A DNA stretch of 64,000 bases, from NCBI GenBank assembly GCA_019359675.1, contig JAHHGX010000065.1, forward strand, positions 248,001 through 312,000. The letters run 5' to 3'. The notes under the pieces are model-generated. The model saw nothing but the letters and a program-made list of their open reading frames with translations, did not search any database and was not told the origin of the DNA. Positions 48,694 to 54,220 of the stretch are shown here, one piece after another. The translations under genes were made by a program, and so were the position numbers. The stretch's first letter is position 1. Each line of letters opens with the position of its first letter. The stretch is from Calothrix sp. FI2-JRJ7. Its GTDB lineage: Bacteria > Cyanobacteriota > Cyanobacteriia > Cyanobacteriales > Nostocaceae.

Positions 48694-49251
48694 TTATTCT
48701 CTACCTAAGTACTTATCTTCGCGTGTATCAATGCGGATGCGCTCTCCTTGTGCAATAAACAAGGGAACCATTACCGTGGCGCCTGTTTCTAACTTTGCTG
48801 GTTTACTACCACCAGTAGCTGTATCACCTTTAACACCTGGGTCGGTTTCGATGACTTCGAGTACTACCGAGTTAGGAAGTTCAACATCAAGCACTTGCTC
48901 ATTCCAACGCACAACATTCGCTTCCATACCTTCCTTAAGGTACTTGACTTTATCGCCAATTTGTTGTGCAGTTAATCTACCCTCTTCGTAGGTTTCCATA
49001 TCCATAAACACGTACTCCTCACCTTCTTTATAGGTGTGCTGCATCGTGCTTTTTTCAAGGTTTGCCTGCGGTACGGTTTCACCAGCACGGAAGGTTCGTT
49101 CTACGGTGTTACCACTTTGAGCATTTTTGAGCTTAGTCCGTACAAAAGCGGCGCCTTTACCTGGTTTAACGTGGAGGAACTCCACAACCCGCCATACAGA
49201 CCCGTCTAGTACAATTGAGACACCAGGGCGAAAATCGTTACTGGAAATCAT
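48694..49251 (-). CDS. efp: Translation elongation factor P
   Basis: 185 residues. It relieves ribosome stalling at polyproline stretches. The three-domain protein has the tip loop KPGKGAAF; Lys-32 is the site modified in some bacteria. The middle and C-terminal OB-fold motifs are [20 protein letters not shown] and [20 protein letters not shown]. Length is normal. It precedes accB by about 210 bases, on the same strand. Confidence 0.96.
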
Positions 49252-49721
49252 GAAACATTCAAATTTTCAAGACAATCGGCATTTATTGTACCCCTCATAA
49301 GGAGAAAATTGTTAATTAGTTGGCAACAAGAGTGTGAGAGTAGGGGGCTATCATTAACTACGGCTAAAAAATACAGCAGCCAGGATAATCAAACTTAATA
49401 GCACTAAAGGCGCCCATAGGTTGGGTATGTCAGATACACTCATAAAGTAATAATTTTTACATCAGTCAAAAAACACCAATTTATAAAGATAATCGATGAA
49501 ATGTAGTACAAAAAAACGTAATCTGATAAGAAGATAGGCAACCGAATTACTGAAGCAACACAGTTAGTTAGAACGCCTAACCATAAATTAATATTACAGA
49601 ATGCGGCGCCTGTAGTTTACAGCGTTGCTGAGGCACAAATTTGTAATCTATAATATTTTATGCCCAATTAAACCTGGCTAGTTCATAATGGTAGTAATAT
49701 TAAAACAATAAAAAATTTTCA
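49252..49721. other. Intergenic region with one possible small ORF
   Basis: About 470 AT-rich bases before the decayed hicBA. It holds a possible 29-residue membrane ORF (49354-49443, complement) and a GGCGCC site at about 49604. Nothing else was seen. Confidence 0.4.
49354..49443 (-). CDS. Possible 29-residue single-membrane-helix protein
   Basis: The complement from the ATG at 49443 gives MSVSDIPNLWAPLVLLSLII, then LAAVFFSRS and a stop. One membrane helix with short polar ends resembles small photosystem or cytochrome subunits, but I cannot match it to a named one. No ribosome-binding site is obvious. It may be real; evidence is limited to its composition. Confidence 0.35.
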   Translation of the reverse strand: MSVSDIPNLWAPLVLLSLIILAAVFFSRS

Positions 49722-49938
49722 ATGACTAAAGAATTTAACGTAATCATACAACGTGACAGTGATGGCTATTTTGTCGCCTCAGTCCCTAATCTTGCTGGAT
49801 GTCATACCCAAGCAAAATCGTGATAACGAACTTATGGAGCGTATTAAAGAAGCTATTGAACTTTGTCTAGAATTTGAACAGGAACAAAGTGAGATATTAG
49901 AATTTGTAGGTGTCCAGAAAGTTTTAGTTCAAGTATGA
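49722..49938 (+). pseudogene. hicB: hicB antitoxin, frameshifted
   Basis: From the ATG it reads MTKEFNVIIQRDSDGYFVAS, then VPNLAGCHTQAKS and a stop. In the next frame it continues NELMERIKEAIELCLEFEQE to 49938. HicB normally runs through this point. One inserted base near TCGTGATAACG breaks it. Its end overlaps the HicA start by 4 bases (ATGA), the usual coupling. Confidence 0.8.
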
Positions 49939-50159
49939 GTAAATTACCCAGTTAAAATGGACGTGAAGTAATTACAGCGTTAGGAAAAGCTGGTTTTAAC
50001 GTTGCAAGAATTCGAGGTAGTCATCATATTCTTATACATAGTGATGGTCGTAGAACCGTTGTCCCGATGCATTCTGGTGAAACAATTGGTACTGGCTGAT
50101 TGTCCCAAATACTGAGTGACTGTCAAATTAGTCGTGAGGAATTTAGACAATTGCTGTAG
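49935..50159 (+). pseudogene. hicA: hicA toxin with two in-frame stops
   Basis: Reading from the ATG gives MSKLPS, a stop, then NGREVITALGKAGFNVARIR, then GSHHILIHSDGRRTVVPMHS, GETIGTG, a stop, and LSQILSDCQISREEFRQLL. HicA has a double-stranded RNA-binding-like fold with the catalytic GSHHI His, still visible. Two nonsense changes make it non-functional. Both members of the pair are therefore dead. Confidence 0.85.
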
Positions 50160-50224
50160 CAAAAAGGTTATGTACTATTGGTTCGTTATATAATTTTTCT
50201 GATACACCAGCGCGCGAAAGCATT

Positions 50225-52741
50225 ATGATATCTCCTGATACTGCGATATGGTTACAGGAACGCACAGCTTTAGGTATTTTATCCCCTACGGTATTGGATG
50301 CTATTGCCGAAGTCATCGAAGAACAAGTTGTACCTGAGCAAACCCAACTTGTAAAAGAAGGAACGGCGCCAACGGCACTGTATATTATTAAAGAAGGTCG
50401 TATTGAAACAAGCAGTACTTCTAATAATGCGGCGCCTTGTTGTGGTTTACTTCCTGGTACTGTTATTAATCTCAAAGACTTTTTACTTCAACAAGATACT
50501 CAATACACAATTACTACTCTAAGTGAATGTGATTTATGGGTAGTTCCAGGGGAGAAATTCCGCGAAATAATTAATCAACATCCAGAAATTGCCCAAGCTG
50601 GAAATATACTACTAAAAGACGAGCTAGCGCAGTTAGCTTCTGCTTTATCTTACGAACAGGAACGTTCGTTAGAATTGCGTCCATACTTAGTAACTAAAGC
50701 TAAACGTGGTATAGTTGGCGCCAGTAGATACGCAACAAAACTACGCTCTCAAATTCGCGAAGCAGCAAATAACCGTAAGTCGGTGTTAGTTTTTGGTGAA
50801 CCTGGTTTAGAAAAAGATAATATTGCCGCTTTAATTCACTACGGCTCAAATTATCGCCGTGAGCCTATTATTAAAATTAATTGTGGTATTCTCCAAACTA
50901 GCGGCGCCGATTTGTTTGGCAGGTATGGTGGTAAACCAGGACTATTAGAATATTTGGGCAATGGAACTTTAGTTCTAAATAATATTCAAGAATTACCAAA
51001 AGAACTTTTTCCAAGTATAAATAATTTAATTAAGAATGGGACTTATAAACCTGTCAACCGCTCTGAAAATATAGAAATCGAATCTAGAGTCAGTAATGCC
51101 CGCATTATTATTGTTTCAGAAAAATCACTACCGCAAGTTGAGCGCGCAGTAGGGACAATAATAAAAGTACCACCGTTACGGGTACGCAAAGCTGATATCA
51201 AAGCGCAGGTTGATTACTATATTAGTTTGTACACAAGCGCACGAGGAATTCCCAAAGCGCGCGTTACACCCGAAGCACTACGTCGGTTACAGTCATATGA
51301 CTTTCCTGGCAACTTAAAAGAGTTAGAAAACTTAGTTGAACGGGCAATAGTTCAAGCACAAGATGAAAATGAACTTACCGAAGAAATCTTTTGGTCAGCA
51401 GACACCAAGAAAAAACGCTTTCGAGTCAATCTATTAAATATATATCCGAATTTACGAAAATTTCTTCGCAGTGACTGGTATCCAGACCGAATAAACTATG
51501 GTTTTACGACTTTTGTTTTTGCTTTTATCGTCCTGGTATTATTTCTCGGACCACAAACGCGCGATAAAAACTTTGTATTAAATTTTTTCTGGTCGTGGTG
51601 GTGGATGGGGTTTTTATTTTTATTTCCTTTCCTTGGACGTATATGGTGCGCGTTTTGCCCGTTCATGATTTATGGTGAAATTACGCAAAAACTCTCACTT
51701 AAATTGTTCCCAAGACAACTTAAAAAATGGCCACGTGAAAAAGCCGAAAAATGGGGAGGTTGGTTTCTATATGGTTTATTTACTCTCATATTTTTGTGGG
51801 AAGAACTTTGGCATTTAGAAAACACCGCGTATTTATCTGGGTGCTTGCTGCTACTTATTACTGCTGGCGCCATGATTTTTTCAGCTATCTTTGAAAGAAG
51901 GTTTTGGTGTCGCTATCTTTGTCCGATTGGAGGAATGAACGGGTTATTCGCAAAACTCTCCATGACCGAACTGCGCGCCCAACAAGGTATTTGTTCAGCA
52001 ACTTGCACCACCTACCAATGCTATAAAGGTGGGCCGCAAAAAGGTGAAGGAATGGAAACGAACGGTTGCCCACTATATTCCCATCCTGCCCAACTCGAAG
52101 ATAACCGTGACTGCGTTTTGTGCATGACCTGTTTAAAAGCATGTCCACACCGTTCAGTTGAATTTAACTTGCGTCCTCCAGGTGTAGAACTATGGACTTC
52201 TCACATACCCCATACATATGAAGTCGCTTTGCTATTTTTAATGTTAGGAGGAGTATATTTACACCGCTTACCCGAAATACAAGCAAAACTTGGTGTAATA
52301 ATTGACTTCAGTCAATTTTGGCAGCATCTAGGATTTTCACTACTAGCTTTAATAGTGCCTGTATTAATCCCCTTTGCTGCATACGGCATAATTAAACTTC
52401 AAAAAATAATTAAAAATCGTAGATTTATTGAACTTGCCTATGGATACTTACCATTAGTTCTAGCAGGTAACTTAGCACATTATCTACGTTTAGGTTTAGG
52501 AGAAGGTGGACGCATATTACCTGTAGCATTTGCAACGTTCGGTTTAAACGGCGAATTTTTACCCGTTGTAGTCGCACATCCTGCGGTAATTGCCTTTTTA
52601 CAAGGTTTTACATTAATATTAGGAGCATTCTTAGCCTTTGTACTGACACAGAAAATAGGGCGCCAACCCATACAAGTATTAATTTGGCAACACCTAGCCA
52701 CAGTAATTTTAACAGTAACCCTGTGGCAGATAATCGTGTAG
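50225..52741 (+). CDS. cNMP-binding / degenerate sigma-54-type AAA / membrane polyferredoxin fusion
   Basis: 838 residues in three parts. 1-140: a cyclic-nucleotide-binding-like domain (ALYIIKEGRI, 51-60). 155-395: an NtrC-type AAA domain in which Walker A is GEPGLEKD (191-198, no GKT/S), Walker B is LVLNNI (249-254, acidic pair lost), and the GAFTGA loop is missing; LPPLRVRKADI-type and PGNLKELENL motifs remain. 420-838: a NapH/NosR/RdxA-like membrane domain with 4Fe-4S motifs CAFCP (475), CRYLCP (562), CSATC and CVLCMTCLKACP (630-641). Cyanobacteria lack sigma-54, so transcription activation is not expected. It probably is a redox membrane protein with a regulatory head. No operon partner is seen. 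Confidence 0.85.
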   Translation: MISPDTAIWLQERTALGILSPTVLDAIAEVIEEQVVPEQTQLVKEGTAPTALYIIKEGRIETSSTSNNAAPCCGLLPGTVINLKDFLLQQDTQYTITTLSECDLWVVPGEKFREIINQHPEIAQAGNILLKDELAQLASALSYEQERSLELRPYLVTKAKRGIVGASRYATKLRSQIREAANNRKSVLVFGEPGLEKDNIAALIHYGSNYRREPIIKINCGILQTSGADLFGRYGGKPGLLEYLGNGTLVLNNIQELPKELFPSINNLIKNGTYKPVNRSENIEIESRVSNARIIIVSEKSLPQVERAVGTIIKVPPLRVRKADIKAQVDYYISLYTSARGIPKARVTPEALRRLQSYDFPGNLKELENLVERAIVQAQDENELTEEIFWSADTKKKRFRVNLLNIYPNLRKFLRSDWYPDRINYGFTTFVFAFIVLVLFLGPQTRDKNFVLNFFWSWWWMGFLFLFPFLGRIWCAFCPFMIYGEITQKLSLKLFPRQLKKWPREKAEKWGGWFLYGLFTLIFLWEELWHLENTAYLSGCLLLLITAGAMIFSAIFERRFWCRYLCPIGGMNGLFAKLSMTELRAQQGICSATCTTYQCYKGGPQKGEGMETNGCPLYSHPAQLEDNRDCVLCMTCLKACPHRSVEFNLRPPGVELWTSHIPHTYEVALLFLMLGGVYLHRLPEIQAKLGVIIDFSQFWQHLGFSLLALIVPVLIPFAAYGIIKLQKIIKNRRFIELAYGYLPLVLAGNLAHYLRLGLGEGGRILPVAFATFGLNGEFLPVVVAHPAVIAFLQGFTLILGAFLAFVLTQKIGRQPIQVLIWQHLATVILTVTLWQIIV

Positions 52742-52801
52742 GGTGCGTTACGCCACGCAAAATCGTCATTTCAAACGAAAAATAAAGTGGCGTAACGCAC
52801 C
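52742..52801. repeat. GGTGCGTTACGCCAC inverted repeat
   Basis: GGTGCGTTACGCCAC (52742-52756) and GTGGCGTAACGCACC (52787-52801) are a perfect 15-base inverted repeat directly after the fusion gene. It is related to the hairpins at 8633-8805. A GTTGGGTGGAGCGGC / CGCAACCCAAC copy follows near 52857-52885. Confidence 0.8.
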
Positions 52802-53041
52802 ATCAATATTTTAGTTATCAGAGACCTTATCCCTTATCTCATCATAAAGTAGCGTAGGTTGGGTGGAGCGGCAGCGCAACCCAACATAAATCTTATTAAT
52901 ATAGTAGTACCTTGGAACGTTTACTTAAAGATAATATGTTAGGAAAATTACATAGCTGAACTCAGTAGTTAGCAAGATGCGTTTTTAACCATTTTTGTGT
53001 CTAAATATTAAAAAATAAAAAACTACTAGCAATTTGGCACA

Positions 53042-54220
53042 ATGGCAAATATTCTAGAACCACCGCGTTTGCGTACTGGCGAAGAAGAATCGGAACGACG
53101 TGCAACTTGGCTCGAACTGTTCTATGATTTAGTTTTTGTAGTAGCAGTCTCACAGCTTGCTCACAATCTTAAAGAAGATATTTCGATATCAGGTTTTCTA
53201 GGATTTGTTTTTCTGTTTATACCTGTGTGGTGGTCGTGGATAGGGACGACGATGTACGCGAATCGCTTTGATAACGATGATATTGGGCGCCGTTTACTCG
53301 TTGGTTTACAAATGCTTACAGCCGCAGCGATGGCTGTAAATATACACCACGGTTTAAATGAAAACTCGGCGGGATTTGCGATATCTTATGCTTTGAGTAG
53401 AATTGTACTGGTAATTGAATATGTACGCGCGGGCAGCTATATACCAGAAGCGCGTCCTTTAACTACGCGGTATGCTGCTGGGTTTGCGATAGCTGCTGCT
53501 ATTTGGATAATTTCTGATTTTGTTGCTTTGCCTTGGCGGTTTGCTTTTTGGGGTGTGGGAATTATTGTAGACTTGGTGACACCTTTTACCGCACGCCAAT
53601 ATCAATTAAGGTTACTTCCCCATGCGTCGCATTTACCCGAACGGTTTGGACTATTTACAATGATTGTTTTAGGTGAAGCAATTATAGCTGTCATCGATGG
53701 TGTTTCCGAACAACGTTGGGATATTTATAGCACTATGGGCGCCGTTTTAGCTTTGACTACCGCATTTAGTTTGTGGTGGGTTTACTTCGATAACCTTGGC
53801 GGTACTCCTATTGTAGCTGCGAAGTCTGAAGGGCGAATTCGGAAAATGTTACTATGGCTGTACACACATTTTCCCTTAGTAATTGGTATTGCAGCTGCGG
53901 GTGTGGGTGTTGAGGAAATATTATTAAGCGAACAAACCCAACCTTTACCAGATAAAATCCGTTACTTAATGTGCGGTTCCATTGCTTTATGCTGGTTAGC
54001 ACTAGCAATTTTACATCGTACTGGGATTATTCGCTACTGTAAAATGCGCGCCAAATATCGACTTGGTGGCACCATCGCAGCAATTGCACTTTTATTTTTT
54101 GGCAAAGGTTTGTCACCTGTTGCCGTAATTGCAATTATTGCAGCAATTGCAGTTTTTCAAGTAGTGCAAGATTTAAGTGGCGCCCGTCCTACAACTCGTA
54201 TTGCTGACGCTGATATTTGA
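53042..54220 (+). CDS. ltrA: Low temperature requirement protein A family membrane protein
   Basis: 392 residues with about ten to eleven membrane helices. The LtrA signature is clear: ATWLELFYDLVFVVAVSQLA at about 21-40, then VWWSWIGTTMYANRFDNDD, and later ERFGLFTMIVLGEAIIAVID. The function of the family is not settled (named for cold-sensitive Listeria). It is intact and of normal length. A G/C-run hairpin repeat follows its stop. Confidence 0.92.
   Translation: MANILEPPRLRTGEEESERRATWLELFYDLVFVVAVSQLAHNLKEDISISGFLGFVFLFIPVWWSWIGTTMYANRFDNDDIGRRLLVGLQMLTAAAMAVNIHHGLNENSAGFAISYALSRIVLVIEYVRAGSYIPEARPLTTRYAAGFAIAAAIWIISDFVALPWRFAFWGVGIIVDLVTPFTARQYQLRLLPHASHLPERFGLFTMIVLGEAIIAVIDGVSEQRWDIYSTMGAVLALTTAFSLWWVYFDNLGGTPIVAAKSEGRIRKMLLWLYTHFPLVIGIAAAGVGVEEILLSEQTQPLPDKIRYLMCGSIALCWLALAILHRTGIIRYCKMRAKYRLGGTIAAIALLFFGKGLSPVAVIAIIAAIAVFQVVQDLSGARPTTRIADADI

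Follow-up and report, generated by a model that had tools for sequence, protein, structure and literature searches.

According to the accessible parts of the sources, cyclic electron flow in Synechococcus sp. PCC 7002 was reported to need FesM (Xu, Liu and Zhao 2005, Plant Physiol 138:1586), and this work is cited for the regulation of the plastoquinone pool (PMC9324425). A 2026 review considers cyclic flow in cyanobacteria to be most likely exclusively NDH-1-dependent, other pathways not being ruled out, and FesM has no occurrence in its accessible text (PMC13331136).

Like FesM, the protein described here is a cyanobacterial membrane iron-sulfur protein. It is encoded in a 64,000-nucleotide stretch of Calothrix sp. 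FI2-JRJ7 DNA, the whole of which is called the window below. Membrane polyferredoxins of the NapH, NosR and CcoG type carry membrane-edge CxnCP motifs followed by two ferredoxin-type cysteine motifs; the window protein has the same arrangement and is set apart by an additional CNB/AAA part and by one more helix region at the C-terminus. Sigma-54 enhancer-binding proteins such as NtrC, NorR and PspF share with it the AAA core and the lid; unlike them, it has no GAFTGA motif, no Walker B acid pair, no full arginine-finger segment, no HTH and no accompanying Sigma54_DBD gene. VpsR, TyrR and DhaR are soluble transcription factors, whereas the window protein is a membrane iron-sulfur protein; the feature that they have in common with it is an activator-type AAA domain with a damaged GAFTGA motif. 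The accessible part of one survey (PMC3162934) describes the damaged motif in these sigma-54-independent relatives and reports that sigma-54 and its activators were absent from all 29 cyanobacteria then sequenced.

We read the whole protein as a FesM-type electron-transfer protein with a non-hydrolysing CNB/AAA scaffold or sensor, with a probability of about 0.6.

Domain layout and spread of the family

The FesM-type gene is a single intact open reading frame in a genome of 8.66 Mb whose closest named relatives are of Calothrix type. Of 57 aligned relatives, trimmed to the start of their TBLASTN matches, at least 90% have Met at position 1. A preliminary description, made from the DNA letters and their translations, had proposed a fusion of a cNMP domain, a sigma-54-type AAA domain and a membrane polyferredoxin, and Pfam indeed places the corresponding domains on this one 838-aa frame (Table 1). 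A search of Rfam at positions 49000-53100 (E up to 0.5) gave no match. Among solved structures searched by sequence, the AAA part strongly matched NifA, VpsR (second-best), NtrX/FleQ-type proteins and PspF, and a fold search with the predicted model of this part agreed; the NCBIfam models that it matched (NorR, NtrX and PspF-type) were all far under cut-off. The CNB part gave weak matches to kinase regulatory domains.

Table 1. Positions of the FesM-type gene and its features in the window, and of two class III loci (divergent paralogues) in their own sequences
Feature	Position	Strand	Details
Whole gene, FesM-type protein	50225..52741	+	838 aa + stop; CNB-like, pseudo-AAA, lid, membrane polyferredoxin
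cNMP-binding-type (CNB) domain	50327..50581	+	residues 35-119; Pfam cNMP_binding, E 1.4e-11
Sigma-54-activator-type AAA core	50711..51100	+	residues 163-292; Pfam Sigma54_activat, E 8.1e-15; without GAFTGA
Degenerate Walker A, GEPGLEKD	50795..50818	+	residues 191-198; P-loop Gly replaced by Glu
Degenerate Walker B, LVLNNI	50969..50986	+	residues 249-254; ends NN instead of DE
AAA lid domain	51179..51385	+	residues 319-387; Pfam AAA_lid_14, E 4.6e-14
Membrane module	51422..52738	+	residues 400-838; nine transmembrane helices, placed by hand; evidence: hydropathy and K+R counts
CxxCP motif	51647..51661	+	residues 475-479; Cys invariant
CxxxCP motif	51908..51925	+	residues 562-567; Cys invariant
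Atypical [4Fe-4S]-type motif	51992..52072	+	Cys 590, 594, 599, 615; invariant; putative cluster
Canonical [4Fe-4S] motif, CxxCxxCxxxCP	52112..52147	+	residues 630-641; Cys 630, 633, 636, 640; putative cluster
C-terminal helix region	52211..52732	+	residues 663-836; five proposed helices; no Pfam family
Class III locus L184, intact P-loop	8887-12524		Pseudanabaena galeata plasmid pPg_03
Class III locus L185, intact P-loop	8875-12566		Aulosira laxa NIES-50 plasmid2

The name "cNMP domain" is a fold assignment only, because the canonical contact residues are missing: Leu83 and Thr92 of the window protein stand where the phosphate-binding cassette has its Glu and Arg. Among the 120 class I members with this domain, 118 carry Leu at the Glu place, and most have Thr, Ala or Ser at the Arg place.

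In the membrane part, Pfam finds Fer4_5 in two stretches (best 542-578, E 1.1e-8) and ferredoxin-type matches below cut-off at about 625-642. The likeness to NapH that had been suggested extends to the Fer4_5 membrane cysteine motifs and two 4Fe-4S motifs (the first atypical, the Fer4 matches being below cut-off) and stops short of the curated NapH score: the NapH/MauN model (TIGR02163) matches residues 467-648 at E 1.6e-13 with 50.8 bits, the cut-off being 213. At least three Cys clusters had been claimed, and at the level of motifs they are there, all 12 Cys of the four motifs being invariant in 139 of 139 aligned members. In the nine-helix layout set by hand for the window protein from hydropathy and the predicted models, 35 K+R fall in the loops facing the N-terminal domains and four in those of the opposite side. 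Two of the nine proposed helices, residues 510-528 and 735-757, stay below the hydropathy threshold, which the other seven pass. By these motifs and this topology, the 12 invariant Cys would all lie on the cytoplasmic side.

Structure prediction gave usable soluble domains in the full-length model and a poor iron-sulfur part (mean pLDDT 60); a membrane-only model was no better (mean pLDDT 58), and a fold search with it gave no match at E 0.001. Helices in the membrane part are present in both of these low-confidence models. A profile search of the membrane part against solved structures gave four weak matches, the best at E 0.0095, all in the ferredoxin-motif stretch. Binding of heme b by the C-terminal helices was considered and rejected, as no set of His ligands common to all classes was seen: class I commonly has His 701, 785 and 823, which classes II and III do not keep, His 752 is not kept in class II, and the only nearly universal His of the membrane module are His 620 and 680.

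Standalone relatives of the membrane module also occur outside cyanobacteria: a 452-aa protein on Deinococcus ficus plasmid pDFI1 (L186, 5965-7320; 32% identical over query residues 402-752), and a relative on a haloarchaeal plasmid among metal-transport genes.

The proposed search for the domain order across cyanobacteria shows that the protein is not a one-off and belongs to a widespread cyanobacterial family. Among named genomes, relatives are encoded in 319 stretches, the best 80 of which each cover at least residues 1-834. Some match at E 0.001 was found in 180 of 386 sampled genomes of the phylum: 104 of them (counted by hand) have a strong match, at E 4e-78 or better, and all belong to the taxonomic class of the window's genome or closer, while the matches in the remaining 76 are far weaker, none better than 3e-25. 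In several genera of the same taxonomic family the gene was not found in the sampled genomes, also at E up to 10; its distribution is therefore patchy, and it is not generally essential.

TBLASTN matches at 151 loci were reduced to 141 proteins plus the query by removing two loci of the own genome, L143 and L154 (less than 600 aa) and repeated identical proteins; setting aside L133-L135, which have an activator-type AAA domain and lie outside the family, left 139 aligned members, weighted to close relatives of the window's genome. These fall into three classes: class I with 123 rows, 120 of them with the CNB domain; class II (TBLASTN identity 40-46%) without the CNB domain in eight of eight rows; and class III, eight divergent paralogues (37-40%), seven of them with the CNB domain.

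Lost motifs and selection in the AAA domain

Both Walker motifs had been described as having lost key residues and the GAFTGA loop as missing, and the alignment bears this out for the window protein and beyond it. A GAFTGA-type motif was found in 0 of 139 aligned members, as was the second-place Glu of Walker B, which reads NN in 121 of the 123 class I members. The stretch 230-245 comprises 16 residues in 128 of 139 members and 7 to 23 in the others (23 in one), against 23-24 in the three intact relatives L133-L135, and the arginine-finger segment comprises 16-19 residues against 28 in the same three; in the window protein this segment, residues 299-315 preceding the lid, is about 11 residues shorter than in them. 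With GAFTGA and the Walker B Glu missing and the arginine-finger segment short, ATP hydrolysis and sigma-54 contact by this pseudo-AAA domain are very unlikely.

The P-loop is more varied: it reads EKD in 111 members, DKD in four, GKD in 16 and GKT in eight, GKT being the class III form. Gly is thus replaced by Glu or Asp in the window protein and 114 others, and Gly-Lys is kept in 24 of 139 (15 of 123 in class I, one of eight in class II, eight of eight in class III). A quick tree of 53 rows, from which those columns were left out and in which the two long branches of classes II and III meet, requires at least eight changes of the trait. Homologues with intact Walker motifs had been named as the finding that would speak against a dead AAA domain; such homologues exist as regards the P-loop, and none has the Walker B Glu. 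The word "dead" therefore fits hydrolysis and does not extend to nucleotide binding across the family, since, judged by these residues, binding may be possible in class III and the GKD members and is unlikely in the window protein.

That the AAA domain acts as a non-hydrolysing switch, still able to bind ATP or another messenger, is a doubtful, though conceivable, reading. The 24 members with an intact P-loop, including all of class III, speak for it, as do Lys197 and Asp198 of the altered P-loop, which are invariant across the 57 aligned relatives, and loss of the Walker B Glu commonly permits binding without hydrolysis; the replaced P-loop Gly of the window protein and the 114 others speaks against it. 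So does the Arg-Asn pair that follows Walker A in FleQ, which we take to be the c-di-GMP contact: it is Ala-Leu in the aligned window protein, and a FleQ-type c-di-GMP site was rejected on this ground.

Sigma-54 had been said to be lacking in cyanobacteria. The search for rpoN, which covered the Sigma54_DBD domain, found it neither in the own genome nor in any of 30 further genomes, with control matches in four of 14 named genomes. In the FesM-type protein itself Pfam (E up to 1) finds no DNA-binding domain, and no HTH was found. A true sigma-54 activator was rejected on the lost motifs and on these negative searches for a Sigma54_DBD gene and a DNA-binding domain, and by the last two the protein does not look like an obvious transcription factor. 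Sigma-54-type AAA domains with an intact P-loop and a GAxT-type loop do occur in the phylum, at L133 (4252-6210, minus strand; two AAA domains according to Pfam), L134 and L135, in three deep-branching genomes in which Sigma54_DBD was undetected.

The AAA part is present in 139 of 139 aligned members, proteins of less than 600 aa having been removed beforehand, and contains stretches such as PPxRxRKxD that are invariant across the 57 relatives. We calculated dN/dS for the window gene against three close relatives (L007, L009 and L010): the ratios are 0.05-0.17 for the AAA core, 0.08-0.20 for the lid, 0.15-0.34 for the CNB part and 0.01-0.04 for the iron-sulfur core; in three more distant pairs tried, synonymous sites were near or at saturation. 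The idea that an AAA domain has been retained on a membrane iron-sulfur protein agrees with this purifying selection, which suggests that the AAA part is probably a scaffold or sensor.

Relation to FesM and gene neighbourhood

FesM of PCC 7002 probably has the CNB-AAA-Fer4_5 architecture of the window protein. The comparison was made through a near relative of PCC 7002: pAQ7 DNA of that strain occurs in six genomes of one family, with all 6778 bases at 96% in G058 and fragments only in the others. In G058 Fer4_5 is found in one ORF only, a full-length class I member 62% identical to the window protein and with the CNB-AAA-Fer4_5 order. Since the only Fer4_5 gene of this relative belongs to the family, the family is most probably FesM. 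In the own genome, too, Fer4_5 is confined to the FesM-type gene, as it is to this family in G083; the argument is weakened by the remaining four genomes, G387 having a second Fer4_5 ORF beside the family member, G211 and G386 having Fer4_5 only in another ORF (EF-hand type), and G388 having none.

Cyanobacteria have a second family of membrane Fer4_5 proteins, about 730 aa long and with an EF-hand pair at the C-terminus (L181, 826-3000, plus strand; L182, 1270-3465, plus strand; L180, 1-2178, minus strand). In L181 and L182 Pfam finds one Fer4_5 stretch, the EF-hand pair and no Fer4 motif, so they fit the description "iron-sulfur protein" less well. Longer Fer4_5 frames (925-1071 aa) occur in G387, G346, G270 and G011.

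Judged by title and start of abstract, no paper listed in literature searches described the domain set or the phenotype with cAMP. As the family is most probably FesM, the idea of electron transfer is not new; the surprising parts are the conserved double pseudo-domain and the divergent paralogue clade near cysK, petC and psbA.

For class I, clustering of the neighbours in the best 80 of 319 named loci showed none conserved in most loci. The commonest is an LtrA homologue, near the FesM-type gene in 26 of these 80; in the window, a gene for an LtrA-type membrane protein lies 300 bases downstream of the FesM-type gene (53042-54220, plus strand).

The class III members on the two named plasmids (Table 1) stand directly before cysK, with petC and psbA copies within 10 kb and thiol-redox genes also nearby on both. 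Of eight further class III loci, four have cysK nearby (L127, L128, L130 and L132), one of them also psbA, and cysK is near the partial locus L143. As counter-checks, L139 (55%) and L140 (37%), both of class I, also have a cysK homologue in their flanks, and three class III loci have no gene of the plasmid cluster or a rhodanese only. The class III surroundings look like a mobile cluster for sulfide or low-oxygen photosynthesis, from which we infer support for a role of the family in photosynthetic electron transport.

Proposed function and rival readings

As a FesM-type electron-transfer protein, the window protein would carry its two [4Fe-4S]-type motifs and both membrane-edge CxnCP motifs on the cytoplasmic side of the membrane module, and electrons would most likely pass from a soluble reductant (ferredoxin or the NADPH side) through this module to the plastoquinone pool. 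It would probably take part in this way in the recycling of electrons around photosystem I. The CNB-like and AAA domains, predicted from their motifs to be unable to hydrolyse ATP or contact sigma-54 and kept by selection, would form a cytoplasmic scaffold or sensor that may oligomerise the protein, dock a partner or gate electron entry.

Alternatively, the protein might move no electrons in bulk: the iron-sulfur module might read the redox state of quinone or ferredoxin, and the CNB/AAA part might relay this to a soluble partner. The build of the cytoplasmic part, CNB plus activator-type AAA, is that of signalling proteins, and TyrR and VpsR, activator relatives with damaged GAFTGA, are regulators according to the accessible part of PMC3162934. 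We nevertheless consider a pure membrane redox sensor or regulator rather unlikely: Pfam finds no DNA-binding or known output domain, all eight class II rows do without the CNB domain, and the most conserved part is the iron-sulfur core, whose mean identity within class I is 0.87, compared with 0.73 in the AAA core and 0.57 in the CNB part.

Still less probable is a metal reductase or assembly factor that, like CcoG, matures a redox enzyme. Fer4_5 is common to NapH, NosR and CcoG-type proteins, and the haloarchaeal relative of the membrane part lies among metal-transport genes; the class I loci, however, have no neighbour conserved in most of them, and the reported FesM phenotype, in the accessible part of the source, concerns cyclic electron flow. 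That the AAA part is a functionless, decaying relic, as its lost catalytic motifs might suggest, is scarcely credible given its low dN/dS in core and lid, its invariant stretches and its presence in every aligned member.

Returning to the electron-transfer protein with a non-hydrolysing scaffold or sensor, we tentatively offer a more specific picture, which is itself more likely wrong than right: in cyanobacteria, a bacterial enhancer-binding AAA domain, preceded by a CNB domain that lost its ligand site, may have been turned into a non-hydrolysing oligomeric collar on a ferredoxin-to-plastoquinone protein, ring assembly or some ligand gating cyclic flow. The sister clade, its P-loop intact, might work likewise when sulfide is present or oxygen is low, next to special copies of psbA and petC.

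Whether electrons in cyanobacteria reach plastoquinone from ferredoxin by routes besides NDH-1 is unsettled, as the accessible part of PMC13331136 presents it, and a conserved membrane iron-sulfur protein whose AAA/CNB half is catalytically dead offers a concrete candidate for such a route. It is also an apt example of how bioenergetics may reuse the ATPase of a transcription activator, and through the sister clade, which lies beside copies of cysK, petC and psbA, the family is tied to photosynthesis under alternative conditions.
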